Assembly (NCBI RefSeq): GCF_014191425.1
Contig: NZ_JACHWP010000006.1
Coordinates: 1-64,000 of the forward strand
Source of the DNA: Helcobacillus massiliensis
GTDB lineage: Bacteria > Actinomycetota > Actinomycetes > Actinomycetales > Dermabacteraceae
Direction: 5' to 3'
DNA length: 64,000 nucleotides
A model generated the notes under the pieces. It was given only the letters and a program-made list of their open reading frames with translations. It had not been told where the DNA came from and did no database searches. Below, piece by piece: positions 22,356 through 61,782 of the stretch. The stretch's first letter is position 1; each line of letters opens with the position of its first letter. The position numbers were made by a program, and so were the translations under genes.

Positions 22356-24128
22356 GTGACTATTGAAGACTTCTTCCGGCTTCTCCTGCGCAACGCGCTG
22401 CTGATCAGTCTGCTCACGCTGCTCGGCCTCGCGGGTGGCTATGCCTTCTCGTACACCAAGCCCACGGTCTACGAGGCGACGGCGCTCGGCTACGTGACCG
22501 CCCGCGTTGAGACGGACGCGAACGGGCAGGAGATCCCCATGGGCGGCAGCGTCCCCGCTGCCGGTGGGGACGCGGAGAAGTACGGAACCGCGCAGACCTA
22601 TCTGCCGCTGTTCAACACCCCGACTGTCGGCCAGGCCGTCATCGACGATCTGGGCCTGCAGGGCACCAGCGCCCACGCGATCGCCTCGAACCTGACGGCA
22701 TCGATCGACCCGAACGTTCCGATCATCACCGTGAAGGCGCGCGCCTCCTCCCCGCAGCGAGCCCAGGAGATCGCGAATTCGTCCATCACCGCCGTGAACC
22801 GCGAGGGCGCGTTCCTGCTCACCGGTGACCGCGACTCCAAGGACGCGCCGATGACCCTCATCTCGTATGAGGCGGCGGACGTCCCGAGCGCCCCCGTTGC
22901 GCCGAACCGGATGAAGTTCGCCGCGGCCGGTGCCGCCGCCGGTCTGGTGCTGGCGCTCGCGCTGTCCTGGCTGCGCAACCGCAACGATTCCCGCGTGCGC
23001 ACCGTGGACGACATCAAGTCGAAGACCCCCGTCACGGCGCTCGGCGTGCTTCCGGACTCCCGCGACCTCACTCGTTCGAAGTCCGGGGAGCTGCCGGAGC
23101 CGAAGGAGTTCCACTCGAAGGAGGCGCTGCGCAAGCTGCGCACGAACCTCCGCTTCGCCAACGTGGACAACCCGCCGCGCTCCATCGTGGTGTCGTCGTC
23201 CGCGCCCGGTGAGGGCAAGTCGACCGTGGCGGCGAACCTGGCGCGCGTCATCGCCCGCTCCGGTGAGAAGGTCATTTTGATCGACGCTGACCTGCGCCGC
23301 CCCACGGTCGCGAAGGCGTTCCAGGTGGACGGCGCGGTGGGCCTGTCGCAGCTGATCGCCGGTTCCGTGGACCTCGAGGACGCGCTGCAGCCGTCGGGAG
23401 TGCGCGGCCTGTCCATCCTGCCGGCGGGCCAGATTCCGCCGAACCCGTCGGAGCTGCTGGGCTCCAACCGCATGGCGGACATCGTGTCGCGCCTGTCCGC
23501 GGACCACTTCGTGGTGATCGACGCCCCGCCGATCCTCGCCGTCACCGACGCTGTTCTGCTCAGCCGCCACACGGACGGCGCCCTGATCGTCGCGGTCCCG
23601 GGCCGCACCCGCGTGGAGGGGCTGAGCCGCTCCATCGAATCGGTCCGCGCCGTCGGCGGCACCGTGCTCGGCGCGGTCATGAACCGTGCCTCCGGCAACC
23701 TCATCACCCGTCTCGCCTACGGTGACGCGGAGTACGGCTACTCGGCGTACGGCTACGCGGCGACCACGTACACGTACACGGAGGACCGCAAGGGCAACAA
23801 GGTGCGCCGCCGCAAGCGCAAGCTCGAGGAGGACCTCGAGGCGCCGGAGCACGGCATCGGTGAGGATGCGGAGATCCGCCCCGCCGGTGTGCCCGCGTCG
23901 GCCGCGATCGCTGCGGCGCCGGCAGCTGCCGCCAAGCCTGCTCCCGCGGCTGCGAGCCCCGCCCCTGCAGCCGAGCGCCCTGCGCCCGCAGCCGAGCGCC
24001 CTGCGCCGTCGGCGCCCGCCGCAACCGCTGTTCGGCCGACGGATGCTGACGAACCGGCGACCGGACCCGTGCGCCGCTCCCGCCTCGGCCGTCGCGCCCG
24101 CTCCCTCGGAACGGACGAGCAGAACTGA
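22356..24128 (+). CDS. Polysaccharide co-polymerase fused to BY-type tyrosine kinase (Wzc/CpsCD-like)
   Basis: The 590-residue protein controls chain length and assembly of the surface polysaccharide. Its N-terminal Wzz-type domain has two membrane helices (about 11-30 and 188-205) around an extracellular loop. The cytoplasmic BY-kinase has Walker A SAPGEGKST (282-290), Walker A' ILIDADLRRP (307-316) and Walker B VVIDAPP (386-392). A tyrosine cluster at about 449-475 (seven or more Tyr) is the expected autophosphorylation site. Unusually, about 110 further residues follow, an Ala/Pro-rich tail with a tandem repeat (ERPAPAAERPAPSAP). The GTG start has only a weak ribosome binding site. The phosphatase at 46179-46748 is a plausible partner. 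Confidence 0.9.
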   Translation: MTIEDFFRLLLRNALLISLLTLLGLAGGYAFSYTKPTVYEATALGYVTARVETDANGQEIPMGGSVPAAGGDAEKYGTAQTYLPLFNTPTVGQAVIDDLGLQGTSAHAIASNLTASIDPNVPIITVKARASSPQRAQEIANSSITAVNREGAFLLTGDRDSKDAPMTLISYEAADVPSAPVAPNRMKFAAAGAAAGLVLALALSWLRNRNDSRVRTVDDIKSKTPVTALGVLPDSRDLTRSKSGELPEPKEFHSKEALRKLRTNLRFANVDNPPRSIVVSSSAPGEGKSTVAANLARVIARSGEKVILIDADLRRPTVAKAFQVDGAVGLSQLIAGSVDLEDALQPSGVRGLSILPAGQIPPNPSELLGSNRMADIVSRLSADHFVVIDAPPILAVTDAVLLSRHTDGALIVAVPGRTRVEGLSRSIESVRAVGGTVLGAVMNRASGNLITRLAYGDAEYGYSAYGYAATTYTYTEDRKGNKVRRRKRKLEEDLEAPEHGIGEDAEIRPAGVPASAAIAAAPAAAAKPAPAAASPAPAAERPAPAAERPAPSAPAATAVRPTDADEPATGPVRRSRLGRRARSLGTDEQN

Positions 24129-25111: not shown

Positions 25112-25112
25112 C

Positions 25113-31552: not shown

Positions 31553-31557
31553 TCCTC

Positions 31558-32466: not shown

Positions 32467-33563
32467 CGATGGCGAGCGCCCCCACGATCGCGATCGCCGC
32501 GAACAACGGCGACATCGGCGGCGGTGAGGTCATGCTTCTCGCCATCGCTGAAGCACTCCGGGAGATCGGGCACCGCCCGCTGGTCCTCGGGCCGACGGAG
32601 CCCTCCGAGATCATCGACGCCGCCGCTGACCGCGGATTCGCGACCCACGCGATCCCCGCGTCCTCCCGCCCCGCATATATGGTCGGCCTCGCGCTGTGGC
32701 GTCTGCGGAACCGCCGCTCCGGGGGCCGGGCTCTGCCCCTGTGGTGCAACGGGCTCGTGCCGTCGCTCGCCACCGTCGGCCAGGGGCCCCGCCTGCTCGA
32801 ACTGCATGCCCTGCCCGCCGGCGTCAACCGCTTCGCCGCTGCGGTGGCGCTGGCCGACTCCGCCCCGCTCGTGGTCCCGTCCCGCTTCATGAAGACACGT
32901 TTCCCGCGTGCCCGAGTGCTGTGGAACTGGGTGGAGGATCCCGGCTTCGCGCCGGCGCGGGACGGTGGCGCGGGAGAGCAGCCGAACGTGCCGGATCCCG
33001 GCGCCCCCATTCGCATCGGCTTCCTCGGCCGGCTCACCCGCGACAAGGGCGTCGACGTCCTCCTGCACGCCTTCCGGACCGTCCAGCAGCAGAGCCCCCG
33101 CCCAGTCGAGCTCGTGCTCGGCGGGGAGAACCGCTTCGGCACCAGCGAGGACGACCGCGTCATCCAGGGCCTCATCGACCACACCGAGGACGTGCGCGTC
33201 CTCGGCTGGGTGCCGCGCGGGGAGCTGTTCGCCCAGGTGGACCTGTGCGTGTTCCCGTCGAGGGCGGAGGAGACGTTCGGCCTCGTCGTCGCGGAGGCGA
33301 TGGCGGCGGGGATGCCGTTCATCATCAGTGACGCGGGTGCTCTTCCAGAAGTGGCCGGTCCCGAGCACCCCTTCAGGGCACGAAACGGTAACGATTCCGA
33401 CCTGGCGCGGGTTATCCTGAAGGCGATCGACGAGCTCGGCGATGACCATGCATCGCTTCTGCGCAGGGCCCGCCGGAGGTACGAGGAGGACTTCTCACCA
33501 GAGGCGGGCACCCGCCGGCTTCGAGAGCTCCTGACCGACCTGACATGGGCGAGGAGCGGCTGA
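32463..33563 (+). CDS. Family 4 glycosyltransferase, paralogue A
   Basis: The 366-residue GT-B enzyme opens with TIAIAANNGDIGGGEVMLLAIAEAL and has the donor domain marks IRIGFLGRLTRDKGVDVLLHAF and SRAEETFGLVVAEAMAAGMPFIISDAG with the full E-x7-E motif. It is followed 6 nt later by a clear paralogue, so this pair arose by tandem duplication. GTG start in a GTGA overlap with the previous gene. Confidence 0.85.
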   Translation: MTMASAPTIAIAANNGDIGGGEVMLLAIAEALREIGHRPLVLGPTEPSEIIDAAADRGFATHAIPASSRPAYMVGLALWRLRNRRSGGRALPLWCNGLVPSLATVGQGPRLLELHALPAGVNRFAAAVALADSAPLVVPSRFMKTRFPRARVLWNWVEDPGFAPARDGGAGEQPNVPDPGAPIRIGFLGRLTRDKGVDVLLHAFRTVQQQSPRPVELVLGGENRFGTSEDDRVIQGLIDHTEDVRVLGWVPRGELFAQVDLCVFPSRAEETFGLVVAEAMAAGMPFIISDAGALPEVAGPEHPFRARNGNDSDLARVILKAIDELGDDHASLLRRARRRYEEDFSPEAGTRRLRELLTDLTWARSG

Positions 33564-33569
33564 GCGCCG

Positions 33570-34616
33570 ATGACCCCCACACCGACCATCGCCATAGCGA
33601 GCAATGCCGGCACCATCAGCGGTGCGGAGACGATGCTGCTCGCCATCGCCGACGGCATGCGAGTCCTCGGCCACCGCCCCCTGGTGATCGGCCCCGCCTC
33701 CCCCTCCGAGCTCGTGGACCGCGCAGCCGCACACGGCTTCGACACCCACCCCGTGCCCGCCGCCACAACGCGCGCCTACCAGCGCGGGCTCGCCGCCTGG
33801 CGCCTGCGCAACCTCCGCATCCCCCTCTGGTGCAACGGCCCCGTGCCGGCCGCCGCCACCATCGGGATGGGGCGCCGCATCATTGAGATGCAGGACCTGC
33901 CGGTCACGATGTCCGGGGCCCAGGCGCGCATCGTCACCGTCGGAGCAGACCGCGTCATCGTCCCCTCCGCCTTCATGGCGGCCCGCATCCCCGGCGGCCA
34001 CGTGATGATGAACTGGACGGAGGACCTGCCGTTCATGCCGCGGGAGCTGCCGGCCGACGGCCCCCTCACCCTCGGCTTCATGGGCCGCCTCACGCCCGAG
34101 AAGGGTCTCGATGTCCTCCTGGACGCCGTCCACATCCTGAACGACCGCCTCGGCGGCGACTACCGGCTCGTCATCGCCGGTGACGACATCGGCGACGACG
34201 CCGACTTCCGCTCCCTGCAGCGACAGCTGAGCGCCCTCGGTGACCGGGTGGAACTCGCCGGGCGCCTCAGCCGGGAGGAGTTCCGCACGCGCGTGGACCT
34301 CGCTGTGATCCCCTCAGTCGCACCCGAATCGTTCGGCCTGGTCGCGGCCGAAGCCCTCGCCATGGGTCTGCCGGTCGTCGTCTCCGACGCCGGCGCCCTG
34401 CCCGAGGTGATGGGGGAGATGCACCCGTGGATCGCCCGATCCGGTGACGCCTCCGCCCTCGCCGACGCCATCCGCGGCGCCGTCAGCGCCACCCCCGTCC
34501 AGCACACGGCGATGGTGCAGGAGGGCCGCGACCGCTGGGAGGAGATGTTCTCCCCGCGCGCCGGCCACCGCCGCCTCCGCCGCCTCCTCCTCAACCCCGG
34601 AATAGCGCATGTCTGA
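33570..34616 (+). CDS. Family 4 glycosyltransferase, paralogue B
   Basis: The 348-residue enzyme is a close paralogue of the preceding gene product, sharing the N-terminal pattern TIAIASNAGTISGAETMLLAIADGM, GHRPLVIGP, the LWCNGPVP loop and the donor motif PESFGLVAAEALAMGLPVVVSDAGALPEV. Two near-identical enzymes in series could add consecutive similar residues. The next gene starts 8 nt before this stop. Confidence 0.85.
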   Translation: MTPTPTIAIASNAGTISGAETMLLAIADGMRVLGHRPLVIGPASPSELVDRAAAHGFDTHPVPAATTRAYQRGLAAWRLRNLRIPLWCNGPVPAAATIGMGRRIIEMQDLPVTMSGAQARIVTVGADRVIVPSAFMAARIPGGHVMMNWTEDLPFMPRELPADGPLTLGFMGRLTPEKGLDVLLDAVHILNDRLGGDYRLVIAGDDIGDDADFRSLQRQLSALGDRVELAGRLSREEFRTRVDLAVIPSVAPESFGLVAAEALAMGLPVVVSDAGALPEVMGEMHPWIARSGDASALADAIRGAVSATPVQHTAMVQEGRDRWEEMFSPRAGHRRLRRLLLNPGIAHV

Positions 34617-36732
34617 TCCCACCGCACGAGCCGCCCACCGCGACCGCGTCGACGCGCCCGTCGCCTCCGTCATCGTCCCCTCCTACCGAGGCGCGGACCG
34701 CGTGCCCGCCCTCCTCGACTCCCTCGCGGCCCAGCAGGACGGCACGCCGCCGTTCGAGGTGATCGTGGTGGTCGACGGCGTGGACGACGGCACCCCCGCG
34801 ATCGTCGATGCCGAGACCCGCATCGATGCCCGCGCCATCGTGTTCCCCGAGAACCGCGGACGGGTCGCCGCCCTGAACGCCGGCTTCGATGCAGCCCGCG
34901 GTGATGTCCTCATCCGCTGCGATGACGATCTCGTCGTCCCGCCCGGCTACATCAGTGCTCATGTCCGCGCCCACGTCGGGGAAGGGGAGTGCGCCGCGGT
35001 GGGCCTGACCCGCGACATCCACAACGACTCCGCCTACGCCCGCGCCTACGGCCGAGCCGCCGCCGTGGCCTCCGCTCGCCGCGCCGGCGCCCTTCCCGCG
35101 GACCAGCGCTGGACCCTGTGGGCCGCCAGCTGTTCCGTGCCCCGCGCCGTCCACGACCGTCTTGGCGGCTACTCCAGCGCGTACACCTCCTACGGATGGG
35201 AAGACATCGACTACGGGTGGCGCTTGCACGACGCCGGCATCCCCATCGTCATCGCCGGTGGAGCCGACGCCGAGCATCACGGGCCCGCCCGCTCCGCAGC
35301 GGCGCGGTCCGCGAAGGCGTTCGACTCCGGCAGCGCCCGCGCTCTGTTCCACCGGCGGCATCCGTCGGCCCCGCTGCCCACCCCGACCACCCCGCCGGGC
35401 CTGTGGGGAAGGGCTGTGGACCTCGCGGCCCGCACGATGCGCCGCGGCCCCGGCGCCCTGCCCGCAATGGCCGACCGCGCAGCCCGCGTTCTGCCCGCGC
35501 CGGTCGCGCGCAAAATCATCGCCGTCAGTGTGGAGGGCGCCGCCCTCGCCGGCCATCGGCATGCTGAGCGCACCGCCCTGGCAACCACCGATCACGCCGG
35601 GGCCCGCCGCCCCCGCATCGCCATCGCCCACGACTACCTCACCCAGCGCGGCGGCGCCGAACGCCTCGTGCTGTCGATCGTGCGCGCCTTCCCCGACGCC
35701 GAGGTCCACACCCTCTTCTACGAACCGGACCAGACCTACCCCGAATACCGTGACGTCAGGATCCGCACGTCCCCGCTGAACGGCATCGGACTGTTCCGCC
35801 GCGATCCGCGCCTCGCCCTGCCGCTGCTCGCACCGGCCGCCTCCGCCCTGCGGATCGACGCCGACCTCGTCATCGCCTCCTCCTCCGGCTGGGCGCACGC
35901 GTTCGGCCGCACCGGCGCCATGGCCGTGTACTGCCACAGCCCCGCCCGCTGGCTGTACGTGGCCGATGACTACCTCGGCTCCGCCGGCCGCCTCTCCCCG
36001 CAGCGCCTCGCCCTCGCCGTCCTCACCGCCCCGCTGAAGGCGTGGGACCAGCGCGCCGCCCGCGCCGCGGACACCTACCGCGGCAACTCCACGGTGGTGC
36101 GTGAGCGCATCCGCCGCGTCTACGGCATCGACGCCCCCACCCTGTTCCCGCCGTTCTCCCCGTCCGTCGCCGACGGTGAGCAGACTATGCCCGCCGGCGT
36201 CACCGGCTGGGGTGAGGACGGCGGCCACTACCTCGTGGTGTCCCGCCTGCAGCCCTACAAGCACGTGGACCGCGTCATCGCGGCGTTCCGCGACACCCCG
36301 GAGCGCCGCCTCATCGTGATCGGCCGCGGCCCCCTCCGCGACCAGCTGCGCTCCGACGCGCCCGCGAACGTCCGCCTCCTCGAAGACCTCACCGACGCCG
36401 AGATGCGCTGGGCGTACGCCCACGCCCGCGCCCTCATCGCCGCCAGTCACGAGGACTTCGGCCTCACCCCCCTCGAAGCGGGAGCGCACGGCATCCCCAC
36501 CATCGCGCTGCGCGCCGGCGGCTATCTCGACACGATCCGCGAAGGCACCAACGGCCTGTTCTTCGACGCCCCCGTCCCCGCCGATATCCGCGACGCCGTG
36601 GACCGGTTCGAGCAGCACCCGCCGTTCGGGGCCGACGGGATCCGCGCCCACGCCGAGACCTTCTCCGAAGAGCGGTTCATCCGCGAACTCCACAGACTCG
36701 CCGACCAGCTCGCCCCCTCCAGCACCCCCTGA
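34609..36732 (+). CDS. Bifunctional GT2-GT4 glycosyltransferase fusion
   Basis: The 707-residue protein joins two transferases. Residues about 15-240 are a GT2 domain (SVIVPSYRGADRV, ENRGRVAALNAGF, RCDDDLVVPPGY, YGWEDIDYGWRLHDAG). After a linker of about 90 residues, residues about 338-705 form a GT4 domain (IAIAHDYLTQRGGAERLVLSIV, HSPARWLY, VVSRLQPYKHVDRVI, HEDFGLTPLEAGAHGIPTIA). Such a fusion would couple two successive sugar additions. It overlaps the upstream GT4 gene by 8 nt. Confidence 0.85.
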   Translation: MSDPTARAAHRDRVDAPVASVIVPSYRGADRVPALLDSLAAQQDGTPPFEVIVVVDGVDDGTPAIVDAETRIDARAIVFPENRGRVAALNAGFDAARGDVLIRCDDDLVVPPGYISAHVRAHVGEGECAAVGLTRDIHNDSAYARAYGRAAAVASARRAGALPADQRWTLWAASCSVPRAVHDRLGGYSSAYTSYGWEDIDYGWRLHDAGIPIVIAGGADAEHHGPARSAAARSAKAFDSGSARALFHRRHPSAPLPTPTTPPGLWGRAVDLAARTMRRGPGALPAMADRAARVLPAPVARKIIAVSVEGAALAGHRHAERTALATTDHAGARRPRIAIAHDYLTQRGGAERLVLSIVRAFPDAEVHTLFYEPDQTYPEYRDVRIRTSPLNGIGLFRRDPRLALPLLAPAASALRIDADLVIASSSGWAHAFGRTGAMAVYCHSPARWLYVADDYLGSAGRLSPQRLALAVLTAPLKAWDQRAARAADTYRGNSTVVRERIRRVYGIDAPTLFPPFSPSVADGEQTMPAGVTGWGEDGGHYLVVSRLQPYKHVDRVIAAFRDTPERRLIVIGRGPLRDQLRSDAPANVRLLEDLTDAEMRWAYAHARALIAASHEDFGLTPLEAGAHGIPTIALRAGGYLDTIREGTNGLFFDAPVPADIRDAVDRFEQHPPFGADGIRAHAETFSEERFIRELHRLADQLAPSSTP

Positions 36733-36763
36733 CCAGAGAATCAGACCGACAGAAGGAACAGCT

Positions 36764-37825
36764 ATGCACATTGCGATCACCGGAGGCGCCGGCTTCATCG
36801 GCCGTCACGTTGCCGCCCAGCTCGTCGATGCAGGGCACACCGTCATCGCCCTGGACAGTCTGCTCGACCAGGTCCACGCAGACCCCATGGCTGATGCTGA
36901 TGCCTTTCCCGGCAGGGTCGTGAAGGGGGACATCCTCGACGAGTCAGCCTGGGCTGAGCTCGGTGAAGCGGAAGGGCTCATCCACCTGGCGGCGGAGACC
37001 GGTACCGGCCAGTCCATGTACGAACAGGACCGGTACCGGCGCGTGAACGTGGACGGCACTCGGCGGGCAGCGCAGTTCGCCGTGGAGCACGACATCCCGA
37101 TCGTGTCCCTGAGCTCTCGTGCCGTGTATGGCGAGGGCCGCACATTGTGGCCCGACCGGGGGATCGTCTTCGGCGAGCGCCGGGGCCCCGGCGCCGTCGC
37201 CGAGGCCTCCCGGGAGAGCGATGAGCACCACCCAGTCTCCGTGTACGGTGAGACCAAGTCGGAGGCGGAGGCAGTCCTCTCCAAGACCACCGCGAACCGC
37301 GTCCCTTCCGCGATCATCCGCCCCCAGAACGTCATCGGGTACGGCCAGGCCCTCCATAACCCGTACACCGGCGTACTCGCGGCGTTCCTGGCCCGCCTGC
37401 GTGAGGGCCGGGCGATCTCCATCTATGGTGACGGTCTGCAGACACGGGACTTCGTCCACGTGAGCGATGTGGCCCGGGTGATCGCCTGGGCACTGCAGCA
37501 CTGCGCCGACACCGGGGAGGACATTGTGGTCAACACCGGAAGCGGCGAGCGCATCACTCTGTTGGACCTCGCCCATTTCGCCATCGACGCCTCTGGGCGC
37601 ACCGACGTAGCGATCGAACACGTGGATGTGGAGCGCGCCGGCGACATCCAGGATGCGGCTGCTGACCTCACCCGTCTGCGCGAGCTCGGCGGTCCGATGC
37701 CCGCTGTGAGCCCCCGGGACGCGGTCGCCGACTTCATCCAGTCGTCCTGGCAGCAGCCCGGTGCTGACTCGACGGTGTGGGATGATGCGCTCGATGAACT
37801 GCAGGACAAGGGGCTCACCTCGTGA
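36764..37825 (+). CDS. NAD-dependent epimerase/dehydratase (extended SDR)
   Basis: The 353-residue SDR has the Rossmann motif ITGGAGFIGRHVAAQL, the catalytic SLSSRAVYGE region and the Tyr-x3-Lys pair in VSVYGETKSEAE, plus IIRPQNVIGYG and DGLQTRDFVHVSDVARV, as in UDP-sugar epimerases of the GalE/WcaG type. It probably makes a nucleotide sugar for the locus. AGAAGGA precedes the ATG. This and the next two genes are visibly more A/T-rich than those before, as if the block was acquired separately. Confidence 0.87.
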   Translation: MHIAITGGAGFIGRHVAAQLVDAGHTVIALDSLLDQVHADPMADADAFPGRVVKGDILDESAWAELGEAEGLIHLAAETGTGQSMYEQDRYRRVNVDGTRRAAQFAVEHDIPIVSLSSRAVYGEGRTLWPDRGIVFGERRGPGAVAEASRESDEHHPVSVYGETKSEAEAVLSKTTANRVPSAIIRPQNVIGYGQALHNPYTGVLAAFLARLREGRAISIYGDGLQTRDFVHVSDVARVIAWALQHCADTGEDIVVNTGSGERITLLDLAHFAIDASGRTDVAIEHVDVERAGDIQDAAADLTRLRELGGPMPAVSPRDAVADFIQSSWQQPGADSTVWDDALDELQDKGLTS

Positions 37826-38838
37826 GAGGGGCACGACTGCTGATCCTCAGCCCCGCCTTCCACGACTACGATCGGGCGTTCAGCGCCGCATTCGAGCAGC
37901 TGGGCTACCAGGTCATGGTGCACCTCTATGACCACAACGCCACTGTCGCAGCGAAGGCGCGAACCAAGCTCCTGCACGAACTCCCGGAGAGGCTCGGAAG
38001 GGACACCACCGAACAGCGCACGCGAGCTATCACCGACTCGGCGATCCGTGCGCTCCGTTCTGTGAAGCCTCAGGCTGTCCTCGTGATCAAAGGGGACGTC
38101 CTCGCCGACGATGTCTGGTCGGAGCTGGACGCCATGGGGATCCCCCGGGCACTTTGGCTCTATGACGAACTCCGCCGTACCCGGTGGGACCGCAGCGCCC
38201 TTGCCGGCATCCCCTTTGTGGCGAGCTACTCCGCTCATGACACCGATGAGCTGCGGGAAGCGGGGATGAACGCCCATCATGTGCCGTTGGGGTTCGACCA
38301 TCTGATGCAGGTGCGGCCGGCAGGTACTCGGACGGGGGAGTTCACCTTCATTGGTGCGCGGTATCCGAACCGGGAGACGGTGATGACCCGCCTCGCGGAT
38401 GCGGGGATCCCCGTGCGGGTCTACGGCCGTGACTGGTCCAAGGACCCCCGTGATGTGCTGCGGACCTGGGGCTCTTCCCGCCCTGCCCTGCCATGGGGAC
38501 GCGATCTCCGGCGCGCTGACGCCTACCAGGTGATGCGGGACGGTGCGGCGACCCTGAACATCCACGGCGACCAGGACGGCTTCACCATGCGCACCTTCGA
38601 AGCGTGCGGTGTGGGAGCCGTTCAGATCATCGACCGAGCGGACGTCGAGGGCCTGTACGAACCGGGCCGCGAACTGCTGGTCGCCAGCAGTGCAGACGAA
38701 GCAGTGGATCAGGCGCAGCGCATCGTCACCGACCCCTCCTGGGCCCGCACGATCAGAGAAGCCGGCAAGCGCCGGACCCTTGCCGAGCACACCCTTGTCC
38801 ACCGAGCCGAACAGCTCGCCGCCGCATTCACCTGCTGA
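37822..38838 (+). CDS. CgeB-like glycosyltransferase family protein
   Basis: The 338-residue protein resembles the CgeB/DUF3880-Glyco_trans_1_2 group: an N-terminal domain with LLILSPAFHDYDRAFSAAFEQLGY and ALWLYDELRR, then a C-terminal part with FTFIGARYPNRETV, VRVYGRDWS and LNIHGDQDGFTMRTFEACGVGAVQIIDRADVEGLYEPGRE. It starts with GTG in a GTGA overlap. A cytoplasmic GT-B transferase is likely; donor unknown. Confidence 0.78.
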   Translation: MRGARLLILSPAFHDYDRAFSAAFEQLGYQVMVHLYDHNATVAAKARTKLLHELPERLGRDTTEQRTRAITDSAIRALRSVKPQAVLVIKGDVLADDVWSELDAMGIPRALWLYDELRRTRWDRSALAGIPFVASYSAHDTDELREAGMNAHHVPLGFDHLMQVRPAGTRTGEFTFIGARYPNRETVMTRLADAGIPVRVYGRDWSKDPRDVLRTWGSSRPALPWGRDLRRADAYQVMRDGAATLNIHGDQDGFTMRTFEACGVGAVQIIDRADVEGLYEPGRELLVASSADEAVDQAQRIVTDPSWARTIREAGKRRTLAEHTLVHRAEQLAAAFTC

Positions 38839-39418: not shown

Positions 39419-39462
39419 AAAGCGTGCGAAACGACGTGATGACGACCGAGGAGGAGGTGCTG

Positions 39463-40929
39463 ATGAGCACGGTCGACGCGACTCGCGCCGCCACAGTGCA
39501 GCCGACCGCCTCACGGGGTCGCTGCATCTACCGCATCGTCCAGGTCACCGCCGACCTCATCGGCCTCGGCCTTGCCCTCCTCATCGCCTATCTCATCCGC
39601 CAGTCCGTCCCCGGTGTGGAGCACGCCAACGACCTCTCCAACCATCTTGGGGACGGTGTGTGGGCGCTCGCCCTCGGATGGCTCATCGCCATCGCGCTGA
39701 TGGGCGGCTACAACCCCCGCTTCGCCACCACCGGCACCGAGATCTACTCCGCGATCCTGCGCGCCACCGTGGTGGCCGCCGGCTTCTCCGGCATCGCCCT
39801 GTTCCTCACCGGGCAGCCGCTGAGCCGCGTGTTCTTCACGATCTTCTTCATGATCGGGCCGGTGTTCCTCCTGGCCAGCCGGTTCGTGATCCGCCGCGTC
39901 ATCAACGGGATGCGCGCCCGCGGGCACCTGCAGTCCCGTGTGGTGCTGGTCGGATCCATGCCGCACGTGGATGCGATCGCCCGCACCATCACCCGCGAGA
40001 CCTGGCTCGGGTATGACATCGTCGGCGCCATCACTCCACCGCACGACCCGCGCCGCCGCTCCCGCCTCGGCATCGACGCCCTCGGCACCACCGACCACCT
40101 CGCCGACATCGTCCGCGAGCACCGCCCCTCCGTGCTGCTGTTCACCGCCGGCTCCATGATGACCAGTGACGAGTTCCGCCGCATCGCCTGGGACCTCGAA
40201 GCGTTCGACCTCGACGTCATCGTGGTGCCGGGCATGAGTGAGATCGCAGCGGACCGCGTCATGATGCGCCCCGTTGCGGGCCTGCCGCTCGTGCACCTGG
40301 AGCCGCCGCGCGCCCGCGCCTCCCTCAGCTGGTCCAAGCGCGCCTTCGACATCGTCTCCACCGCCGCCGGCCTGATCCTCATCTCCCCGCTGCTGCTCGC
40401 CATCGCGCTCGCGGTGAAGCTCGGCGACGGCGGTCCCGTCCTCTTCACCCAGCAGCGCGTGGGCCGCGACGGGCAGCTGTTCAGCTTCCTGAAGTTCCGC
40501 TCCATGGTGCCGGACGCGGAGAAGGTGCGCGCCCAGATGCTGGAGAACGCCGACCGCGACCGCGGCAACGCCGTCATGTTCAAGATGGCCGAAGATCCGC
40601 GCATCACCCGCGTGGGCCGTGTTCTGCGCCGCTACTCCCTGGATGAGCTGCCGCAGCTGTGGAACGTGCTGCGCGGCGACATGTCCCTCATCGGGCCGCG
40701 CCCCGCACTGCCCAGCGAGGTCGAGTCGTACCACGACGATGCGCACCGGCGCCTGTCGGTGCGGCCCGGCATCACCGGCCTGTGGCAGGTCAGCGGCCGC
40801 TCCGACCTCTCCTGGGACGAGACGGTCCGCCTCGACCTGTTCTACGTGGACAACTGGTCGTTCGCACAGGACATGTCGATCCTGGTCCGCACGGTCCGCG
40901 CTGTCATCGCCTCCGAAGGGGCGTACTGA
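39463..40929 (+). CDS. Polyprenyl-phosphate sugar-1-phosphate transferase (WbaP/WcaJ-like)
   Basis: This enzyme starts repeat-unit synthesis by moving a sugar-1-phosphate onto undecaprenyl phosphate. The 488-residue protein has four N-terminal membrane helices, a Rossmann-like CoA-binding domain (VVLVGSMPHVDAIA) and the C-terminal catalytic domain starting KRAFDIVSTAAGLILISPLL, with LFTQQRVGRDGQLFSFLKFRSM and SLDELPQLWNVLRGDMSLIGPRP. ATG 39463 has GAGGAGGAGGT just upstream; GTG 39424 with a leaderless -10 is the alternative. Confidence 0.92.
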   Translation: MSTVDATRAATVQPTASRGRCIYRIVQVTADLIGLGLALLIAYLIRQSVPGVEHANDLSNHLGDGVWALALGWLIAIALMGGYNPRFATTGTEIYSAILRATVVAAGFSGIALFLTGQPLSRVFFTIFFMIGPVFLLASRFVIRRVINGMRARGHLQSRVVLVGSMPHVDAIARTITRETWLGYDIVGAITPPHDPRRRSRLGIDALGTTDHLADIVREHRPSVLLFTAGSMMTSDEFRRIAWDLEAFDLDVIVVPGMSEIAADRVMMRPVAGLPLVHLEPPRARASLSWSKRAFDIVSTAAGLILISPLLLAIALAVKLGDGGPVLFTQQRVGRDGQLFSFLKFRSMVPDAEKVRAQMLENADRDRGNAVMFKMAEDPRITRVGRVLRRYSLDELPQLWNVLRGDMSLIGPRPALPSEVESYHDDAHRRLSVRPGITGLWQVSGRSDLSWDETVRLDLFYVDNWSFAQDMSILVRTVRAVIASEGAY

Positions 40930-41474
40930 TGAGCACCCGGCCCGCCTCCCTGAGCGCCCGCCTGCGCATTCTCGGCGCGCTCATTCTGCTCGCGACCGTC
41001 GTCGCCGTCGGCTCGCTCCTCACCACGGCGGACGGCTGGGGCGTGAACCGGCTGAACGTCGCCGTCTGGCAGGCACTGCTGGGGCCCGTCGGCCTCACTC
41101 GGTTCATCACCCCGGAGGCCTTCGCCGCTCTCATGAACATCGTGCTGTTCATCCCGATCGGCTTCGCCCTCCATCTGCTGATCCGCACCCGCTGGTGGAT
41201 CCTCGCCCTCGCGATGGCGTCCATCGCGGTCGAGACGTATCAGTTCTCCATGGGCACCCGCATCGCCAGCATCGGCGACGTCGTCACCAACACCCTCGGC
41301 GGCGCCATCGGCGTCCTCACCGGCCGGGCGGTGGTGCAGCGCGCGCTCAGGACCGGCGCCGCACCATCTGCAGCAGGCGCCGCCCACCGCGCCGCAGACG
41401 ATCCAGCCATTCCTGCCGCACCTCACGGTCGCTCGGCTGATGCCCCAGGCGCAGAGCGAGATGGTCACGATTGA
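40929..41474 (+). CDS. VanZ-like membrane protein
   Basis: The 181-residue protein has four hydrophobic helices and the VanZ pattern ALMNIVLFIPIGFALHLL ... AVETYQFSMGTRIASIGDVVTNTLGGAIG. VanZ-like proteins occur in cell-envelope loci; their reaction is not established here. The last 40 residues are Ala/Pro-rich and encoded over the 3' end of the opposite nucleotidyltransferase gene, a 128-bp antisense overlap. Start overlaps the priming transferase stop by 1 nt. Confidence 0.82.
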   Translation: MSTRPASLSARLRILGALILLATVVAVGSLLTTADGWGVNRLNVAVWQALLGPVGLTRFITPEAFAALMNIVLFIPIGFALHLLIRTRWWILALAMASIAVETYQFSMGTRIASIGDVVTNTLGGAIGVLTGRAVVQRALRTGAAPSAAGAAHRAADDPAIPAAPHGRSADAPGAERDGHD

Positions 41475-42225
41475 TATGAGCCGCGCTCCACGCCACCGCC
41501 AGCTTTCCGCGCACACCGCGCGCGTCCTGAAGCCGCGCCGACCACACCTCCGTGGGGTTCGCGCCGGAGATCACCGCATCCCACAGGTGGAAGTCCTGCA
41601 TGCTGCGGGCGCGCTCGCGCCGCACCCCGTCGCCCTCATCGGTGAGGACCAGCAGCGCCGCCAGGCCCTGCAGCTCACCGGCGCGCGCCTCCAGCGCCGC
41701 CCGCTCCTGCGCGGTCGCGGAGGTCCACGTGCGGTCGAAGTCGTGCTCGGCCTTCGGGCCGTCGGAGCGCGCCGCATGCATCAGCAGCAGCAGGGCCTGG
41801 TCGCTGCGGCTCGGCACCTGCACGGTGCGGCCGCCCAGGTCCATGCCGTCGCGCTGGGCCCACAGGGCCGTGAACACGTCGGCCGCCTCGGCGGCGAGAC
41901 CGGGGTAGGAGCGGTGCAGATCGGTGGTGCCCCACACCGGGTGGTACAGCGTTGCCGCGTGAGCGAACACGGAGCCCTGCTCGAAGCTGGTGCGCATCTC
42001 CCACCCGGTCGCCTTCATGGCGGCGAGGTACGCCGCCACATGCGCGGGCCGAACCAGGACGTCGCAGTCCGAGGAGACGCCGCGGCCCTCCGCCAGCTCC
42101 GGGTGGATGGCGCTGCCCTTGATGTGCAGGACGTCCGCGCCGCAGCCGTCGGCGAGGTCCTGCAGCAGCGCGTGCGTGATGCGCAGGCGCGGCTCCACCG
42201 GTGCGTTGGTCGACAGCTCCTCCAT
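41347..42225 (-). CDS. Nucleotidyltransferase family protein (NTP_transf_5 type)
   Basis: The 292-residue protein has the short nucleotidyltransferase core HIKGSAIHPELAEGRGVSSDCDVLV, where Ser-Asp-x-Asp supplies the metal-binding acids, and TDLHRSYPGL, as in PF14907 proteins. Such proteins occur with HPr-kinase-like and PqqD genes in lasso-peptide and glycan loci; their product is poorly known. ATG 42225 is preferred over ATG 42234 because TAGCAT (42238-42233) overlaps the upper ATG and ends 7 nt before the lower one, giving a leaderless start. It runs opposite to its neighbours and overlaps the VanZ gene by 128 bp. Confidence 0.75.
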   Translation of the reverse strand: MEELSTNAPVEPRLRITHALLQDLADGCGADVLHIKGSAIHPELAEGRGVSSDCDVLVRPAHVAAYLAAMKATGWEMRTSFEQGSVFAHAATLYHPVWGTTDLHRSYPGLAAEAADVFTALWAQRDGMDLGGRTVQVPSRSDQALLLLMHAARSDGPKAEHDFDRTWTSATAQERAALEARAGELQGLAALLVLTDEGDGVRRERARSMQDFHLWDAVISGANPTEVWSARLQDARGVRGKLAVAWSAAHINRDHLALRLGHQPSDREVRQEWLDRLRRGGRRLLQMVRRRS

Positions 42226-42238
42226 GCCGCCCATGCTA
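42226..42238 (-). promoter_or_regulatory. -10 box fixing the start of the nucleotidyltransferase gene
   Basis: On the minus strand TAGCAT (42238-42233), 7 nt, then ATG at 42225. Because the box overlaps the upstream ATG (42234), that codon would not be transcribed. Confidence 0.5.
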
Positions 42239-42269
42239 CTGCCCGCCCGACCACCGAGGATGGTGACCG

Positions 42270-43472
42270 ATGCTGAGGATCGACGGCTTCGTCCAGCACT
42301 ACGCCTGGGGATCCACCGATGTTCTGCCCCAGTTCCTGTCCCGCCCCGCCGACGGGCAGCCGTGGGCGGAGATCTGGTTCGGCGCGCACCCGCTCGCCCC
42401 CTCCACCATCGCCGACGGCGCCCGCGGCCTGGACGCGGTCATCGCCGCCGCCCCGCGCCGCATGCTCGGCGACTCCGTGATGCGCGCCTTCGGGCCCGCT
42501 CTGCCGTTCCTGCTGAAGCTCATCGCCCCCGCGCAGCCGCTGTCCCTGCAGGTGCACCCGTCGAAGGAGCACGCGCAGGAGTCGTTCGCGGCGGAGAACG
42601 CCGCCGGCATCCCCCTCGACTCGGGCGACCGCAACTACCGCGATGCCAACCACAAGCCCGAAATGCTGATGGCGCTCACCCCGTTCGAGGCCCTCTGCGG
42701 ATTCCGCACCCCCCGCAAAGCCCTCTCCATCGTGCGGGGGCTGGACACGCCCCTGTCGGAGCAGCTGACGCAGCTGATCACGGAGCACCCGTCGGCCCAC
42801 GGGATGCGCGCCGCCTTCCGCCGCCTGGTCACGCCGGCGCTGTCCCCGTCGGCCGAGGAGGTGGGGGCGCTCGCGGAGGCCTGCCGACGGAGGCTGGACA
42901 GTGGAGAGTCGCCGTCCCCGCGCATCGATGCGACCGTGTCGACCCTGCAGGCTGTGCACCCGGGGGACCCGGGGGTGGCGGCGGCGCTGCTGATGAACCC
43001 GGTGTCGCTGCAGCCGGGGGAGGCGATGTTCGTGCCCGACGGCATCATCCACTCCTACCAGTCCGGTCTCGGCATCGAGATCATGGCCTCCAGCGACAAT
43101 GTTCTGCGCGCCGGCCTCACCTCGAAGAAGGTGGATGCGAACGAACTGCTGCAGTGCGCGTCGGTGGCGGCGGCGCCGCCGATCCGCATCGGCCCGGAGC
43201 AGCTGACGGAGAACACCGCCGCGTACTTCTCCCCGATCGACGACTTCGAACTGTCCATCACCACGCTGCCGGACGGCGCCAGCTTCTACCCGTCGATCCG
43301 GGTGCCGGGGCAGGGGCCGCGGATCCTGCTGTGCATCGAGGGCGATGTGCTGCTGCAGAGCGACTCCGGTCGAGCCCGTGTCCGTCCCGGCGACGCCGTG
43401 TTCGTCAGCGCTGATGATGGCGCGGTGTCGGTGGGTGGTCACGGCCGGATCGTGCAGGCGAGCGTGCCGTGA
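42270..43472 (+). CDS. manA: Mannose-6-phosphate isomerase, class I
   Basis: ManA interconverts fructose-6-phosphate and mannose-6-phosphate, feeding GDP-mannose for glycans. The 400-residue protein shows QHYAWGS, AEIWFGAHPLAPS, LSLQVHPSKEHA with zinc ligands, DANHKPEM, and MFVPDGIIHSYQSGLGIEIMASSDNVLRAGLT. GAGGATGG lies before the ATG. Its stop overlaps the PqqD gene start, so mannose supply and the PqqD/HPr-kinase pair are one transcription unit. Confidence 0.93.
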   Translation: MLRIDGFVQHYAWGSTDVLPQFLSRPADGQPWAEIWFGAHPLAPSTIADGARGLDAVIAAAPRRMLGDSVMRAFGPALPFLLKLIAPAQPLSLQVHPSKEHAQESFAAENAAGIPLDSGDRNYRDANHKPEMLMALTPFEALCGFRTPRKALSIVRGLDTPLSEQLTQLITEHPSAHGMRAAFRRLVTPALSPSAEEVGALAEACRRRLDSGESPSPRIDATVSTLQAVHPGDPGVAAALLMNPVSLQPGEAMFVPDGIIHSYQSGLGIEIMASSDNVLRAGLTSKKVDANELLQCASVAAAPPIRIGPEQLTENTAAYFSPIDDFELSITTLPDGASFYPSIRVPGQGPRILLCIEGDVLLQSDSGRARVRPGDAVFVSADDGAVSVGGHGRIVQASVP

Positions 43473-43792
43473 TGAACGACCGTGCTGCCATCGATGACCG
43501 CGCTGCGCCCGGCGGGGGAGTGCGCTACCGTGCCCGCCCGTTCGGCTTCGACATCGACCCCGGCGGTGAGGAGGCCTGGGTGGGGATCTTCCCCTCCGGG
43601 CCCTACACCCATGTCAACGCGGCGGCGCTGCTGCTGCTGATGACGCTCGAGGAGGCGGAGGAGGCCCTCACGGCCGACGAGGTCGCTGACCGGATGCGCC
43701 GCGACATGCCCGATATGCCGTCCCATGCCGCCGAGCAGCTGCGCACTGTGCTGGAGGAGTTCGCCGCCGACGGGCTGGTGGACACCGCATGA
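43472..43792 (+). CDS. PqqD family peptide-chaperone-like protein
   Basis: This 106-residue protein has the PqqD winged-helix pattern: strands YRARPFGFDIDP and AWVGIFPSGPYTHVN, then AAALLLLMTLEEAEEALTADEVADRMRRDM and a C-terminal helix with VLEEFAADGLVDTA. PqqD-like domains bind leader peptides in RiPP pathways, but some serve other roles. It sits between manA (overlap) and the HPr-kinase-like gene (4-nt overlap). GTG 43469 is an alternative start. No radical SAM enzyme is nearby. Confidence 0.72.
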   Translation: MNDRAAIDDRAAPGGGVRYRARPFGFDIDPGGEEAWVGIFPSGPYTHVNAAALLLLMTLEEAEEALTADEVADRMRRDMPDMPSHAAEQLRTVLEEFAADGLVDTA

Positions 43793-45045
43793 GCACGACC
43801 CCCGCGCCGCTGCACCTGGAGGTCGCGGACCTGCCGGTGGTGCTGCGCTTCGCGCCCGCCGCCGAGCCCGACCGCGGCACCGCCGCGATCGCCGCGCAGC
43901 TCGCCGAGCTGTGGGAGCCGCTGGTCACACGCTCGCCGCGAGATCCCGCACCCGCCGGCATCACCCTGCGGGTCGGCATCACCGGCGAAACCGGCGACGA
44001 CGCCGACGGCGCGGACACGATCCAGCTGCCGCCGAACTTCGCCGATTCCTCCTACATCGTCTCCGGCCGCGTCACCACCGCCCTCATCGAACACCTCATC
44101 GGCGAGCGGCTGCTCCTGCACGCCGGCGCGGTCGACCTGCCGGGCGTGGGCATCGTGATGGTCACCGGCGCCTCCGGCGCGGGTAAGTCCACCGCCACCA
44201 CGGTCCTCGCCGCCAGCGGCGGCTACATCACCGACGAGCTCACCATCCTTGACCCGCGCTCCCTGCAGATCGACGCCTACCCGAAGCCCCTCTCGCACGT
44301 GTACACGATCGACGGGGCCAGAATCGGCAAGCGCGACTTCACCATGGCGGAGGTCGGCATCGACCGGGTGCTGACCGGCCGCGTCGGCGCGCCGTCCGTG
44401 TTCCTCCTGGTGAACCGCGATCAGGACGCCGACGGCGTCACGTTCGAGACGATGCGCATGGTGGAGGCGGTTGCGGAGATCAGCGGTCAGTCCTCCTCGA
44501 TCTGGTTGATCCCGAACCCGCTCGGCACCCTGGTGCGCCTGCTGCAGCAGACCGGCGGCCTGCTGCGCGCCACCTACGCCGAGTCTGCGGACCTGCCGGC
44601 CGCGCTGGCGGAGCACCTGCGCGGACCCGATGACGCACCGGCAGACGCCCCGACCGGGGCGTCATTCGAGTGCGACATCGTGGACCCGCCGGCGCATCTG
44701 CGGCCGGCCGAGGCACCGGACCCGTCGGTCCTTGGTAGCGACTCCGCTGCGGGCACCGCCGGGGCTCCGCTGCGCTTGCTGCCCTTCCACCAGGCGGTGT
44801 GGACAGCCGACGGCTGCGTGGTCCTCACCGGCGGCGACGCCCCCACGGCCGTGGTGCTGGAAGGCCTCAGCGCGCTCCTGTGGAGCCTGCTGCTGGAGGC
44901 CGACGAGGACGCCGACGCCCCCGCTGATCTCACCGAGGCGGACCTGCTGGCGCTGCTGCGCGCCGAGATCGGCGACCACCCCGACTCCGAGACGATCCTC
45001 GCCGAGGTGCTCGCGCTGCTGCGCAGCCACGCGCTGCTGGTGTAA
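43789..45045 (+). CDS. HPr-kinase-like protein with C-terminal PqqD-like domain
   Basis: The 418-residue protein has an HPr-kinase/PEPCK-type P-loop, GASGAGKST (127-135), preceded by LLLHAGAVDL and followed by TDELTI (148-153), which corresponds to the catalytic acidic pair region of HprK. After an Ala/Asp-rich linker (about 285-315), residues about 325-418 resemble PqqD (FHQAVWTADGCVVLTGG, LEGLSALLWSLLLEA, LLRSHALLV). Kinases of this kind phosphorylate lasso peptides (PadeK, ThcoK) in other bacteria. Fusion to a peptide-binding fold suggests a peptide or small protein substrate. It is the last gene of the manA unit. Confidence 0.72.
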   Translation: MSTTPAPLHLEVADLPVVLRFAPAAEPDRGTAAIAAQLAELWEPLVTRSPRDPAPAGITLRVGITGETGDDADGADTIQLPPNFADSSYIVSGRVTTALIEHLIGERLLLHAGAVDLPGVGIVMVTGASGAGKSTATTVLAASGGYITDELTILDPRSLQIDAYPKPLSHVYTIDGARIGKRDFTMAEVGIDRVLTGRVGAPSVFLLVNRDQDADGVTFETMRMVEAVAEISGQSSSIWLIPNPLGTLVRLLQQTGGLLRATYAESADLPAALAEHLRGPDDAPADAPTGASFECDIVDPPAHLRPAEAPDPSVLGSDSAAGTAGAPLRLLPFHQAVWTADGCVVLTGGDAPTAVVLEGLSALLWSLLLEADEDADAPADLTEADLLALLRAEIGDHPDSETILAEVLALLRSHALLV

Positions 45046-45051
45046 GCGGAA

Positions 45052-46182
45052 CTACTCGGCGCTTGCCGGATCTGCCGCGGAGGCGGCCGTGGCCTGCCCC
45101 TCCTCCAGTTGCGCGCGGATGTCCTGCACGAACTCGATGACGGTGTCCGACCCGGCGACAGGCCCGCCGGCGAGGTAGTCGTCCGCGCCGAGCAGCACCG
45201 CGGAGGGGCGGCCCATGAGGTCCATCATCTGGCCGATCTCGTTGTCCGGGTCGTACGCGTCGAGTCCGTCGAGGTGCTGCGCGGTCCCCTCATCCATCCC
45301 GCCGGGATCCGTCGGCAGCACCGCCAGCACCCGAACCAGCGGATGCAGCTGCTCGGACCACTCCCGGATCATCGGCATCAGTCGCACGCACGGCCCGCAA
45401 CCCGGGTTGAGGAAGATCAGCAGCAGCGCCTGCGTCTGCGTCAGGGTCCGCAGCGGCGGCCGCGTCCCGTCCGGCATCGTCAAGGCGACGTACGGAGTGG
45501 GGAGGCGCACGTAGTCGCCGAGCTCGGCATCCGGGTCGTCACCGCTGTGCGCGCCAGGCGCAGCAGCCCCCGTCGGCCCGCCGTTCGCGCTCGGCCCCGT
45601 CGGCGCCTCACCGGCGAGGCGGTTGCTCGACCCGGCAATCAGCACCGCCACCGCGGCCGACGCGCCCACGACCGCGGCCAGCACGATCGCCGCCGACGGC
45701 GCCACCGACGCCAGCAGACCCGGCGCGGCACCCAGCCATGCCGCACCACCGGCCACCACGGCGATCGCCGACAGCAGCACATTGCGCACCAGCGTCCCGC
45801 TCGTCACCTCCGGGGAACCGAGCGTGCCGAAGCAGGAGCAGGAGACGGCATCGCCGCGCCGCAGCGCCCCCGCGATCACCGCGGTGAACGCCGCCATCAG
45901 CACCAGCGCGAGGCCCGCACCCGCGACGGCGACCCACCGCACCGGCACCCACAGCGCCGCCGCGGCCACCAGCTCCAGCACCGGCACCGCCACCGCGATC
46001 ACCGGGTGCAGGGGCCGCGCCGGGATCCGCAGGGAGATCAGCGCCGAACGCGTCCCCGGCAGGTCCAGCAGCTTCGCCGCGCCGGACAGGGCGAACACGA
46101 AGCTCAGCAGCATGCCGAACCCGGCGGCGCTCGCCATCGCGGCGCTCGCGACGGCAGTGCCCGTCATCGCGGCGCTCGTCAT
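45052..46182 (-). CDS. MauE-type membrane protein fused to a thioredoxin-like domain
   Basis: The 376-residue protein begins with a MauE/DoxX-like four-helix membrane part (about 20-180) that carries CSCFG with Cys115 and Cys117. After a Gly/Ala/Pro-rich linker the C-terminal thioredoxin fold has the redox motif GCGPC (Cys261, Cys264) and LDGLDAYDPDNEIGQMM. It would form or reduce disulfides on the outside of the membrane. It overlaps the phosphatase gene by 4 nt and ends 7 nt from the convergent HPr-kinase-like gene, so the three are likely linked in function. Confidence 0.8.
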   Translation of the reverse strand: MTSAAMTGTAVASAAMASAAGFGMLLSFVFALSGAAKLLDLPGTRSALISLRIPARPLHPVIAVAVPVLELVAAAALWVPVRWVAVAGAGLALVLMAAFTAVIAGALRRGDAVSCSCFGTLGSPEVTSGTLVRNVLLSAIAVVAGGAAWLGAAPGLLASVAPSAAIVLAAVVGASAAVAVLIAGSSNRLAGEAPTGPSANGGPTGAAAPGAHSGDDPDAELGDYVRLPTPYVALTMPDGTRPPLRTLTQTQALLLIFLNPGCGPCVRLMPMIREWSEQLHPLVRVLAVLPTDPGGMDEGTAQHLDGLDAYDPDNEIGQMMDLMGRPSAVLLGADDYLAGGPVAGSDTVIEFVQDIRAQLEEGQATAASAADPASAE

Positions 46183-46748
46183 GCGCGGCGGCCCGCGCGG
46201 ATCAGCGCGTCAGCGAGCGCGGTGGCGGCGGCGTCGATCTCGTCGGCCACGCGGGAGAACACCCCCGGATCCTTCCGGTACGGGTCCTCCACCTCCATGA
46301 CCTCGGCGTTGCCGCGCCGCGCCACGGTCTGCACCGCGCTTGCCGGGTCGGGCCCGTCGAGCTCGTCCGCGATCGAGGGCGCCGCGCCCATCAGCACGGT
46401 CTTCTTCGCGGCCCGCGGCCACTCTTCGGTGATGAAGCGGCGCTGGCGGCGCGACATCACCAGAATCAGGTCCGCGTCCTGCACATCGAACGCGTCGATC
46501 TGGTGGGCGCGGAACCCGTCGGCCCGCATCCCCCTCTTCTCGAGTTCGACCACCATCGCCGGCTCCACCGGGTGCCCCTCCAGAGCGCCGATGCCGGCGG
46601 AGGACACGTCGATGCCGGTGCCGGCGAGGCGTTCGCGCAGAACGATCTCGCCGAACGGTGATCGGCAGATGTTTCCAGTGCATACAATCAGGATTCGGCG
46701 GACTCCCGTAGCCTGGATCACAGGAGCGCCGGCTGAGGATTCGGCCAT
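46179..46748 (-). CDS. Low-molecular-weight protein-tyrosine phosphatase (Wzb-like)
   Basis: The 189-residue enzyme has the P-loop VCTGNICRSP with nucleophile Cys23 and Arg29, and the general-acid Asp in EDPYRKDP near residue 157. It is somewhat longer than the usual 150 residues at both ends. It would dephosphorylate the tyrosine cluster of the Wzc-like kinase (22356-24128) and so reset polymer assembly. The ATG follows TAGGCT by 6 nt with no ribosome binding site: a leaderless start. Confidence 0.9.
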   Translation of the reverse strand: MAESSAGAPVIQATGVRRILIVCTGNICRSPFGEIVLRERLAGTGIDVSSAGIGALEGHPVEPAMVVELEKRGMRADGFRAHQIDAFDVQDADLILVMSRRQRRFITEEWPRAAKKTVLMGAAPSIADELDGPDPASAVQTVARRGNAEVMEVEDPYRKDPGVFSRVADEIDAAATALADALIRAGRRA

Positions 46749-58683: not shown

Positions 58684-58976
58684 TGCCTCGCTTCCTCCAT
58701 CTTCTGCGCGACCGCGTCCGGGAGACGCTTGCTCATGTCGCATCCGGCCCCGCTACCCGCCGCGCAGCCGACGGAGCACACCGGCCCATCCATATGGGTG
58801 CGGGCACCTGGATCGGCGCCGGCGCGATCATCTTCCCGGGCGTCACCATCGGCCCCGGCAGCATCGTCGGTGCTGGAGCGGTGGTCACGAAGGATGCGCC
58901 GGCGAACACGGTGATCGCCGGGGTTCCCGCCCGGCCCATCCGGGAACTGGACAAAGGCGGGTCCACCTCTGCGTAA
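58683..58976 (+). CDS. Short hexapeptide-repeat acetyltransferase, probably internally truncated
   Basis: The 97-residue product ends in a normal left-handed beta-helix C-terminus ([49 protein letters not shown]) but its N-terminal 35 residues ([20 protein letters not shown]) lead into it almost directly. Comparison with the 178-residue homologue at 38852 suggests that about 80 residues, including the likely active-site His, are missing in frame. It is therefore probably inactive. A GCCGACGGA copy lies exactly in the suspected join. Confidence 0.6.
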
Positions 58977-59024
58977 CTGACCACTCTGTTGGTCGAACTG
59001 AATCAGCGGCGCCTCAGATTCTGC

Positions 59025-59036
59025 TAGGTTCGCCGT
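59025..59036 (+). promoter_or_regulatory. Extended -10 box and leaderless start of the PglK-like gene
   Basis: TGC-TAGGTT (59022-59030), 6 nt, then ATG at 59037. The gene thus has its own promoter inside the glycan gene run. Confidence 0.6.
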
Positions 59037-60836: not shown

Positions 60837-60872
60837 CCGAACCCCGCTCCGCCGCCGCAGATCGGAGCAACC

Positions 60873-61758: not shown

Positions 61759-61782
61759 CTCGACCACGCCCCCGAGGTCAGC

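Follow-up and report, generated by a model that had tools for sequence, protein, structure and literature searches.

What a kinase fused to a leader-binding domain might modify, when no precursor peptide is visible beside it, is the question raised by a gene module of Helcobacillus massiliensis (family Dermabacteraceae; genome size, 2.6 Mb). The module lies in a stretch of 64,000 nucleotides of contig NZ_JACHWP010000006.1 (hereafter the window), downstream of an exopolysaccharide (EPS) locus, and combines an NTP_transf_5 nucleotidyltransferase with an HprK-like kinase and two PqqD domains, that is, recognition elements (RREs) of the kind found with ribosomally synthesized and posttranslationally modified peptides (RiPPs). 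We consider it likely that the module as a whole is a protein-marking system coupled to twin-arginine translocation (Tat) export, the missing substrate being probably a set of exported proteins with a W-x-x-P (WxxP) motif in their Tat signal. All six open reading frames that a preliminary description had grouped here hold up at their coordinates and strands, and their domains are recognized by profile or by structural model (pLDDT, predicted local distance difference test):

41347..42234, minus strand: NTP_transf_5 nucleotidyltransferase, an LppN/PsmN-like third enzyme (PF14907, 35.4 bits over a cut-off of 31.2; invariant DxD motif and third acidic site in DLHR; phyletic match to the kinase).
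42270..43472, plus strand: ManA, mannose-6-phosphate isomerase, EPS precursor supply (TIGR00218 above cut-off).
43472..43792, plus strand: stand-alone RRE/PqqD-fold protein, proposed binder of the WxxP signal (model pLDDT 85; TbiB1 and PqqD folds; LppB, 9x8z_B, as best PDB sequence match).
43789..45045, plus strand: HprK/PEPCK-fold kinase with a fused second RRE (model pLDDT 88; PEPCK, HprK/P, and lasso B1 matches).
44167..44193, plus strand: kinase P-loop GASGAGKST, residues 127-135 (invariant or nearly so in the alignment).
44230..44238, plus strand: kinase TDE with Asp149-Glu150, the proposed counterpart of the catalytic Asp pair of HprK (invariant in the alignment).
44776..45042, plus strand: kinase C-terminal RRE domain, residues ~330-418 (leader-bound lasso B1, 6jx3, matched by Foldseek).
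45052..46182, minus strand: fusion of a MauE/DoxX-type membrane protein with thioredoxin, an accessory (PF07291, E 3e-24; kept in most own-family loci).
46179..46721, minus strand: low-molecular-weight phosphatase, Wzb-like, probably EPS control (LMWPc, PF01451, E 5e-23; relatives near Wzc-like kinases elsewhere); a longer frame from 46748 is also possible.

ManA and the phosphatase, which had been counted as members of the module, look like ordinary EPS genes, as does the nearby glycosylphosphotransferase. Because Wzc-like kinases and low-molecular-weight phosphatases recur as neighbors outside the own family, Wzb is the likeliest identity of the phosphatase; a Wzc-like autokinase is encoded at 22356-24128. 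The thioredoxin-like C-terminus of the MauE fusion matches weakly, and the protein is probably an accessory for redox care of exported proteins.

The folds first ascribed to the kinase and the PqqD proteins are borne out by AlphaFold models of the single proteins, built from ortholog alignments, and by Foldseek searches. For the kinase model (pLDDT, 88.2; predicted template modeling score, 0.87), the matches are to PEPCK and HprK/P, those of its C-terminus including a leader-bound lasso B1 RRE (6jx3, TM 0.72). The stand-alone PqqD model matches TbiB1 and PqqD with a probability of 0.98 to 0.99, though with an E value of only ~0.1, and both PqqD domains are modeled as a three-strand, three-helix winged helix like that of lasso B1/PqqD. 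The kinase alignment shows conservation at the P-loop, TDE, and YPKP residues; fold, P-loop, and an acidic pair presumably equivalent to that of HprK place the modeled kinase in the HprK/PEPCK-fold superfamily. The C-terminal RRE is a separate gene adjoining the kinase in several other families. A kinase and PqqD also adjoin in the HprK_rel_A/PqqD_rel_X cassette, whereas the window proteins are far below both of its curated cut-offs (kinase, 30.2 bits against 200 for TIGR04352; PqqD, 20.6 against 35 for TIGR04353). The stand-alone PqqD is likewise under the curated PqqD cut-off (17.0 versus 23.4), and orthologs or relatives pass PF05402 (E 1e-7 and 3e-15). Among PDB sequences, the PqqD profile finds LppB first (9x8z, E 0.0017) and then TbiB1, the kinase profile finds only P-loop look-alikes, and the NTP_transf_5 profile finds no meaningful match. 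A search of plasmids for HprK_rel_A relatives returned none.

The gene set is far from chance. The order glycosylphosphotransferase-VanZ-NTP_transf_5-ManA-PqqD-HprK-MauE/thioredoxin-phosphatase-aldehyde dehydrogenase is kept in ~16 of twenty 20-kb Dermabacteraceae loci, and the kinase is found in 20 of the 47 genomes of the family, with NTP_transf_5 in exactly the same 20, so that the conserved co-occurrence on which the preliminary description had staked its proposal is observed. At the class level, NTP_transf_5 accompanies the kinase in 13 of 15 genomes. As queries for related loci, the kinase sequence alone retrieved none and an NTP_transf_5 alignment 14. Kinase, RREs, and NTP_transf_5 constitute the core, since they persist outside the Dermabacteraceae while ManA, MauE-thioredoxin, and the aldehyde dehydrogenase are mostly lost. 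In another family (f24), NTP_transf_5 was not found and a family 2 glycosyltransferase (GT2) adjoins the kinase in its place, which suggests that a sugar is added. Three further loci depart from this pattern: one in yet another family (L170:5185-10295), perhaps representing a separate branch of the system, has an asparagine synthase and a double glycosyltransferase next to a kinase with PqqD, and two have NTP_transf_5 and PqqD with no recognizable kinase in the stretch, namely, that of Brevibacterium yomogidense (L185), which may use a different kinase, and that of Granulicoccus phenolivorans (L184), where the stretch ends at a contig end.

In relatives, the cassette is neighbored by proteins starting RRxxVKGAAWxxPVxAxxxAAPAxAAS. 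The signal consensus is of Tat type, RR-x7-W-x2-P-x8-P-A-x-A/x-S, the slash marking the cleavage point given by the A-x-A pattern. Numbered from the Trp, 76 aligned signals have W in 72, P(+3) in 76, P(+12) in 74, A(+13) in 69, A(+15) in 74, and Ser/Thr(+17) in 75, while W+16 is mixed and W+18 varies; RR (76/76) and the first P were fixed by the search pattern. Among 40 signals from genomes outside the profile, Ser/Thr stands at W+17 in 37 and at W+18 in 3 (40/40), a count with some selection built in, since the profile contains the Ser/Thr column, and with W+16 and W+18 free to vary. Numbered from the presumed cleavage, the signal reads W(-16)xxP(-13) with Ser/Thr at +2/+3. Twin arginine, hydrophobic region, and near-invariant A-x-A predict Tat export, and TatC is encoded in the own genome. 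Where weak profile matches in kinase-negative genomes were inspected, they proved to be Tat lipoproteins of the usual kind, which lack the Trp. A crude control on Ser at +2 in common signal peptides yielded just 23 weak cases; most of these are membrane segments, and the control was set aside. We regard the WxxP signal as an undescribed signal-peptide class, and searches of an open-access library turned up no earlier account that ties an RRE-kinase to Tat signals.

The signal is linked to the kinase, RREs, and NTP_transf_5, as we observe in genome-wide searches with a signal profile (family threshold, E<1e-5), and we hold this link to be nearly certain. Within the 47 Dermabacteraceae genomes, it occurs in 20/20 kinase-positive and 4/27 kinase-negative ones (15/15 and 4/23 in the largest genus of the family). 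The first profile was seeded from module loci of this family, and the fair tests are therefore those outside it. The wider counts are 12/15 versus 2/282 among 297 genomes of the class, 81/87 versus 7/309 among 396 genomes of the order (Fisher 4e-68), and 64/70 versus 3/287 in the order once the own family is removed. Physical distance agrees: 8 of the 20 own-family genomes encode a signal protein no more than 10 kb from the kinase, where 0.6 were expected (tail, 4e-8), and the distance is 5 kb or less in 25 of the 27 kinase-signal pairs listed for the order. Where NTP_transf_5 lies far from the kinase, it can instead adjoin a signal protein (genomes G328 and G112). The f24 family, whose kinases are distant (E ~1e-13 to 1e-17), has a small Pro-rich LPXTG protein adjoining the kinase, with the signal GTAAWTVPTVTAIxLTPANAASPSG. 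In family f31, an HprK_rel_A-type kinase (TIGR04352, E 2e-21) has on either side a protein with a signal of this kind (AVWAVPT/AVWATPV) and sits beside uvrA/uvrC, not in an EPS locus. This last case bears on a quite unlikely alternative, namely, that the kinase targets the glycan machinery (autokinase, glycosyltransferases, or lipid-linked sugar) and that signal proteins merely bind or follow the polysaccharide. The position of the cassette within EPS loci in the own family and several others would suit such an indirect link, yet the signal tracks the kinase outside EPS loci too, RREs bind peptides, and the signal bears the motif that related RREs bind.

The closest known systems suggest how marking might proceed. 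Linear polyphosphorylated peptides (LPP) of Bacillota are made from capsule loci with an RRE, an HprK-like kinase, an NTP transferase, and a SipW-like peptidase (lppA-K-B-S-D-N in Paenibacillus alginolyticus), where the RRE LppB binds leader Y-16 and P-13 and LppK phosphorylates core Ser3, the S3A exchange abolishing phosphorylation (PMC13381572). Paeninodin leaders use WxxP (PMC13381572), and in pseudomycoidin a nucleotidyltransferase puts hexoses on phosphoserine (PMC8498205). By analogy with LPP and pseudomycoidin, the two RREs would bind W-x-x-P in the hydrophobic part of the Tat signal. The HprK-like kinase would then phosphorylate the conserved Ser (rarely Thr) at mature +2/+3, which we judge fairly probable from the same precedents. 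NTP_transf_5 might extend the Ser phosphate with a sugar or nucleotide group, a tentative step for which the pseudomycoidin enzyme is the model. Tat would export the marked protein, and a signal peptidase would cut the signal to leave the modified Ser near the new N-terminus; its attachment to polysaccharide made by the same locus is speculative and rather doubtful.

Likeness to LPP extends to the gene set, with a separate RRE, an HprK-like kinase, and an NTP transferase encoded in a capsule locus, to an aromatic(-16)xxP(-13) leader with the acceptor Ser just past the (here presumed) cleavage point, and to LppB as nearest solved relative of the window PqqD. The two systems differ in that the leader here is a Tat signal with Trp where LppB binds Tyr; the Tyr-holding Asp70 of LppB is non-Asp in 17/17 window-type PqqD sequences by an approximate alignment. 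LPP precursors have 35 to 200 residues and lie in the cluster, whereas candidate substrates here reach 600+ residues, are often distant, and are absent from the window. No counterpart of the SipW-like peptidase stood out among those conserved neighbors that were scanned. LPP clusters have an MsbA-like exporter; an ABC transporter is found here at 59061-60836, within a second polysaccharide gene group. In addition, LPP and paeninodins are reported from Bacillota only (PMC13381572), and the window system belongs to Actinomycetota. Paeninodin and pseudomycoidin clusters (PadeK/PsmK kinase; PsmN nucleotidyltransferase) share the HprK-like kinase, NTP_transf_5, and B1 RRE, and the former share the WxxP leader, but their kinase targets the C-terminal Ser of a small peptide, and lasso cyclase and B2 protease are required. 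A paeninodin-type lasso cluster was rejected: as first noted, neither enzyme is in the locus, with no B2 leader protease (PF13471) matched in the own genome and its sole Asn_synthase on contig C1, the module being on C6.

These enzyme sets, the same as in LPP and paeninodin clusters (PMC13381572, PMC8498205), together with the small size of the f24 signal protein, could also point to a classical RiPP, whose small precursor, encoded near the cassette, would receive phosphate and sugar, with the Tat proteins there by coincidence. We regard this as very improbable: the coincidence would be of order 1e-68, B2 is absent from the genome, and no conserved small open reading frame stood out among the conserved neighbors in orthologous loci.

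Some Tat substrates are known to have signal-binding chaperones. The RREs and kinase could accordingly be a chaperone and quality-control device for Tat signal peptides, with the RREs holding WxxP until folding and the kinase or its ATPase activity timing release, no lasting mark being made. WxxP does lie within the part removed on export, and MauE-thioredoxin would suit the care of exported proteins. Such a role nevertheless seems unlikely, as it leaves unexplained the Ser/Thr at mature +2/+3 and the strict pairing with NTP_transf_5, or its swap for a glycosyltransferase, and the phosphates placed by known relatives of the kinase are stable.

Several points weigh against the marking of exported proteins that we prefer. 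Related genomes are not fully independent in the counts above; the match between signal and kinase is not merely shared ancestry, since several genera contain both genomes with them and genomes without. In the order, six genomes with the kinase are without the signal at threshold, one of which (G264) has three kinase neighbors with Leu/Ile for Trp at unchanged spacing. Conversely, seven kinase-negative genomes of the order carry the signal; G034 retains a weak kinase match, and G595 (B. yomogidense) has NTP_transf_5 and PqqD. No module adjoins the signal proteins of the kinase-negative genomes G011, G013, G020, and G265. The assignment of W+17/W+18 to mature +2/+3 depends on a cleavage site taken from the A-x-A pattern. 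Finally, LppK does not phosphorylate an S3T variant (PMC13381572), and a few signals here carry Thr; LppN was inactive in the heterologous host used for LPP (PMC13381572), which makes the NTP_transf_5 step the weakest.

The candidate substrates have the signal in common and no shared domain. They include choice-of-anchor G proteins (NF033766, E 2e-41 and 5e-39), RCC1 repeat proteins, LPXTG Pro-rich proteins, and many without a match, mostly of ~100 to 600 residues with some longer, and there are several per genome, frequently encoded away from the cassette. WxxP-signal proteins are found elsewhere in the own genome and none inside the window. The suggestion that the kinase modifies a peptide encoded elsewhere is supported and becomes more specific, WxxP Tat proteins being the likely substrates; it needs correction in that these are mostly proteins of such length rather than a dedicated small precursor peptide. 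The own genome has eight signal matches, ~5 of them intact; among the eight, one is without RR, one carries an in-frame stop, and two form a near-identical pair on contigs C18 and C28. This pair (G000:C18:5322 and G000:C28:407; L189 and L190) comprises the same signal protein and a divergent neighbor and is probably a repeat or an assembly duplication. Two choice-of-anchor G proteins in or beside the module in other loci (L035:12730-14286 and L041:7843-9324) have a WxxP Tat signal and no recognized C-terminal anchor. Since the examined ones are without such an anchor, an N-terminal mark may be what anchors choice-of-anchor G proteins.

Around the module, the window contains the following features of the EPS locus and its edge:

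22356..24128, plus strand: Wzz-ParA tyrosine autokinase, Wzc-like, likely phosphatase partner (Pfam ParA/AAA_31 matches; Wzz E 9e-5).
24128-38838: sugar-acid synthesis and many glycosyltransferases of the EPS locus.
39424..40929, plus strand: polyprenyl glycosylphosphotransferase starting the EPS repeat (TIGR03025 above cut-off; present in ~24 kinase loci).
40926..41474, plus strand: VanZ-like membrane protein, a conserved neighbor (PF04892; kept in 14 loci).

In the EPS locus, a 753-residue protein (26923-29184) fuses CBS, NeuB, SAF, and a xylose-isomerase-like TIM barrel and adjoins a cytidylyltransferase, a hint that the EPS contains a nonulosonic (sialic-like) acid. Beyond unrelated efflux genes, the second polysaccharide gene group (56821-62871) encodes GT2 and GT11 (fucosyl-type) transferases.

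More broadly, it is possible, though short of probable, that Actinomycetota have a general N-terminal sorting or marking system, in which kinase, RRE, and nucleotidyltransferase read a dedicated Tat signal and attach a sugar, linked through phosphate, to Ser+2/+3 of surface proteins that are numerous and unrelated. These proteins might in this way be fixed to the polysaccharide that the locus itself makes, in an N-terminal equivalent of LPXTG/PEP-CTERM anchoring. The PEP-CTERM/exosortase (EpsH) system likewise has a short sorting signal tied to EPS genes, which phylogenetic profiling brought to light (PMC1569441). It differs in that the module studied here would use an N-terminal signal of Tat type, with a cytoplasmic kinase and nucleotidyltransferase as its enzymes, and no exosortase was seen. 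The WxxP signal provides an undescribed type of signal peptide paired with enzymes that can be put to the test. It also offers a possible role for surface proteins that lack annotation, of which there are hundreds, and a way to approach what NTP_transf_5 enzymes do. If the proposal is true, a chemistry known from a few small peptides would serve dozens of actinobacterial genera to mark entire proteins ahead of their export by Tat.

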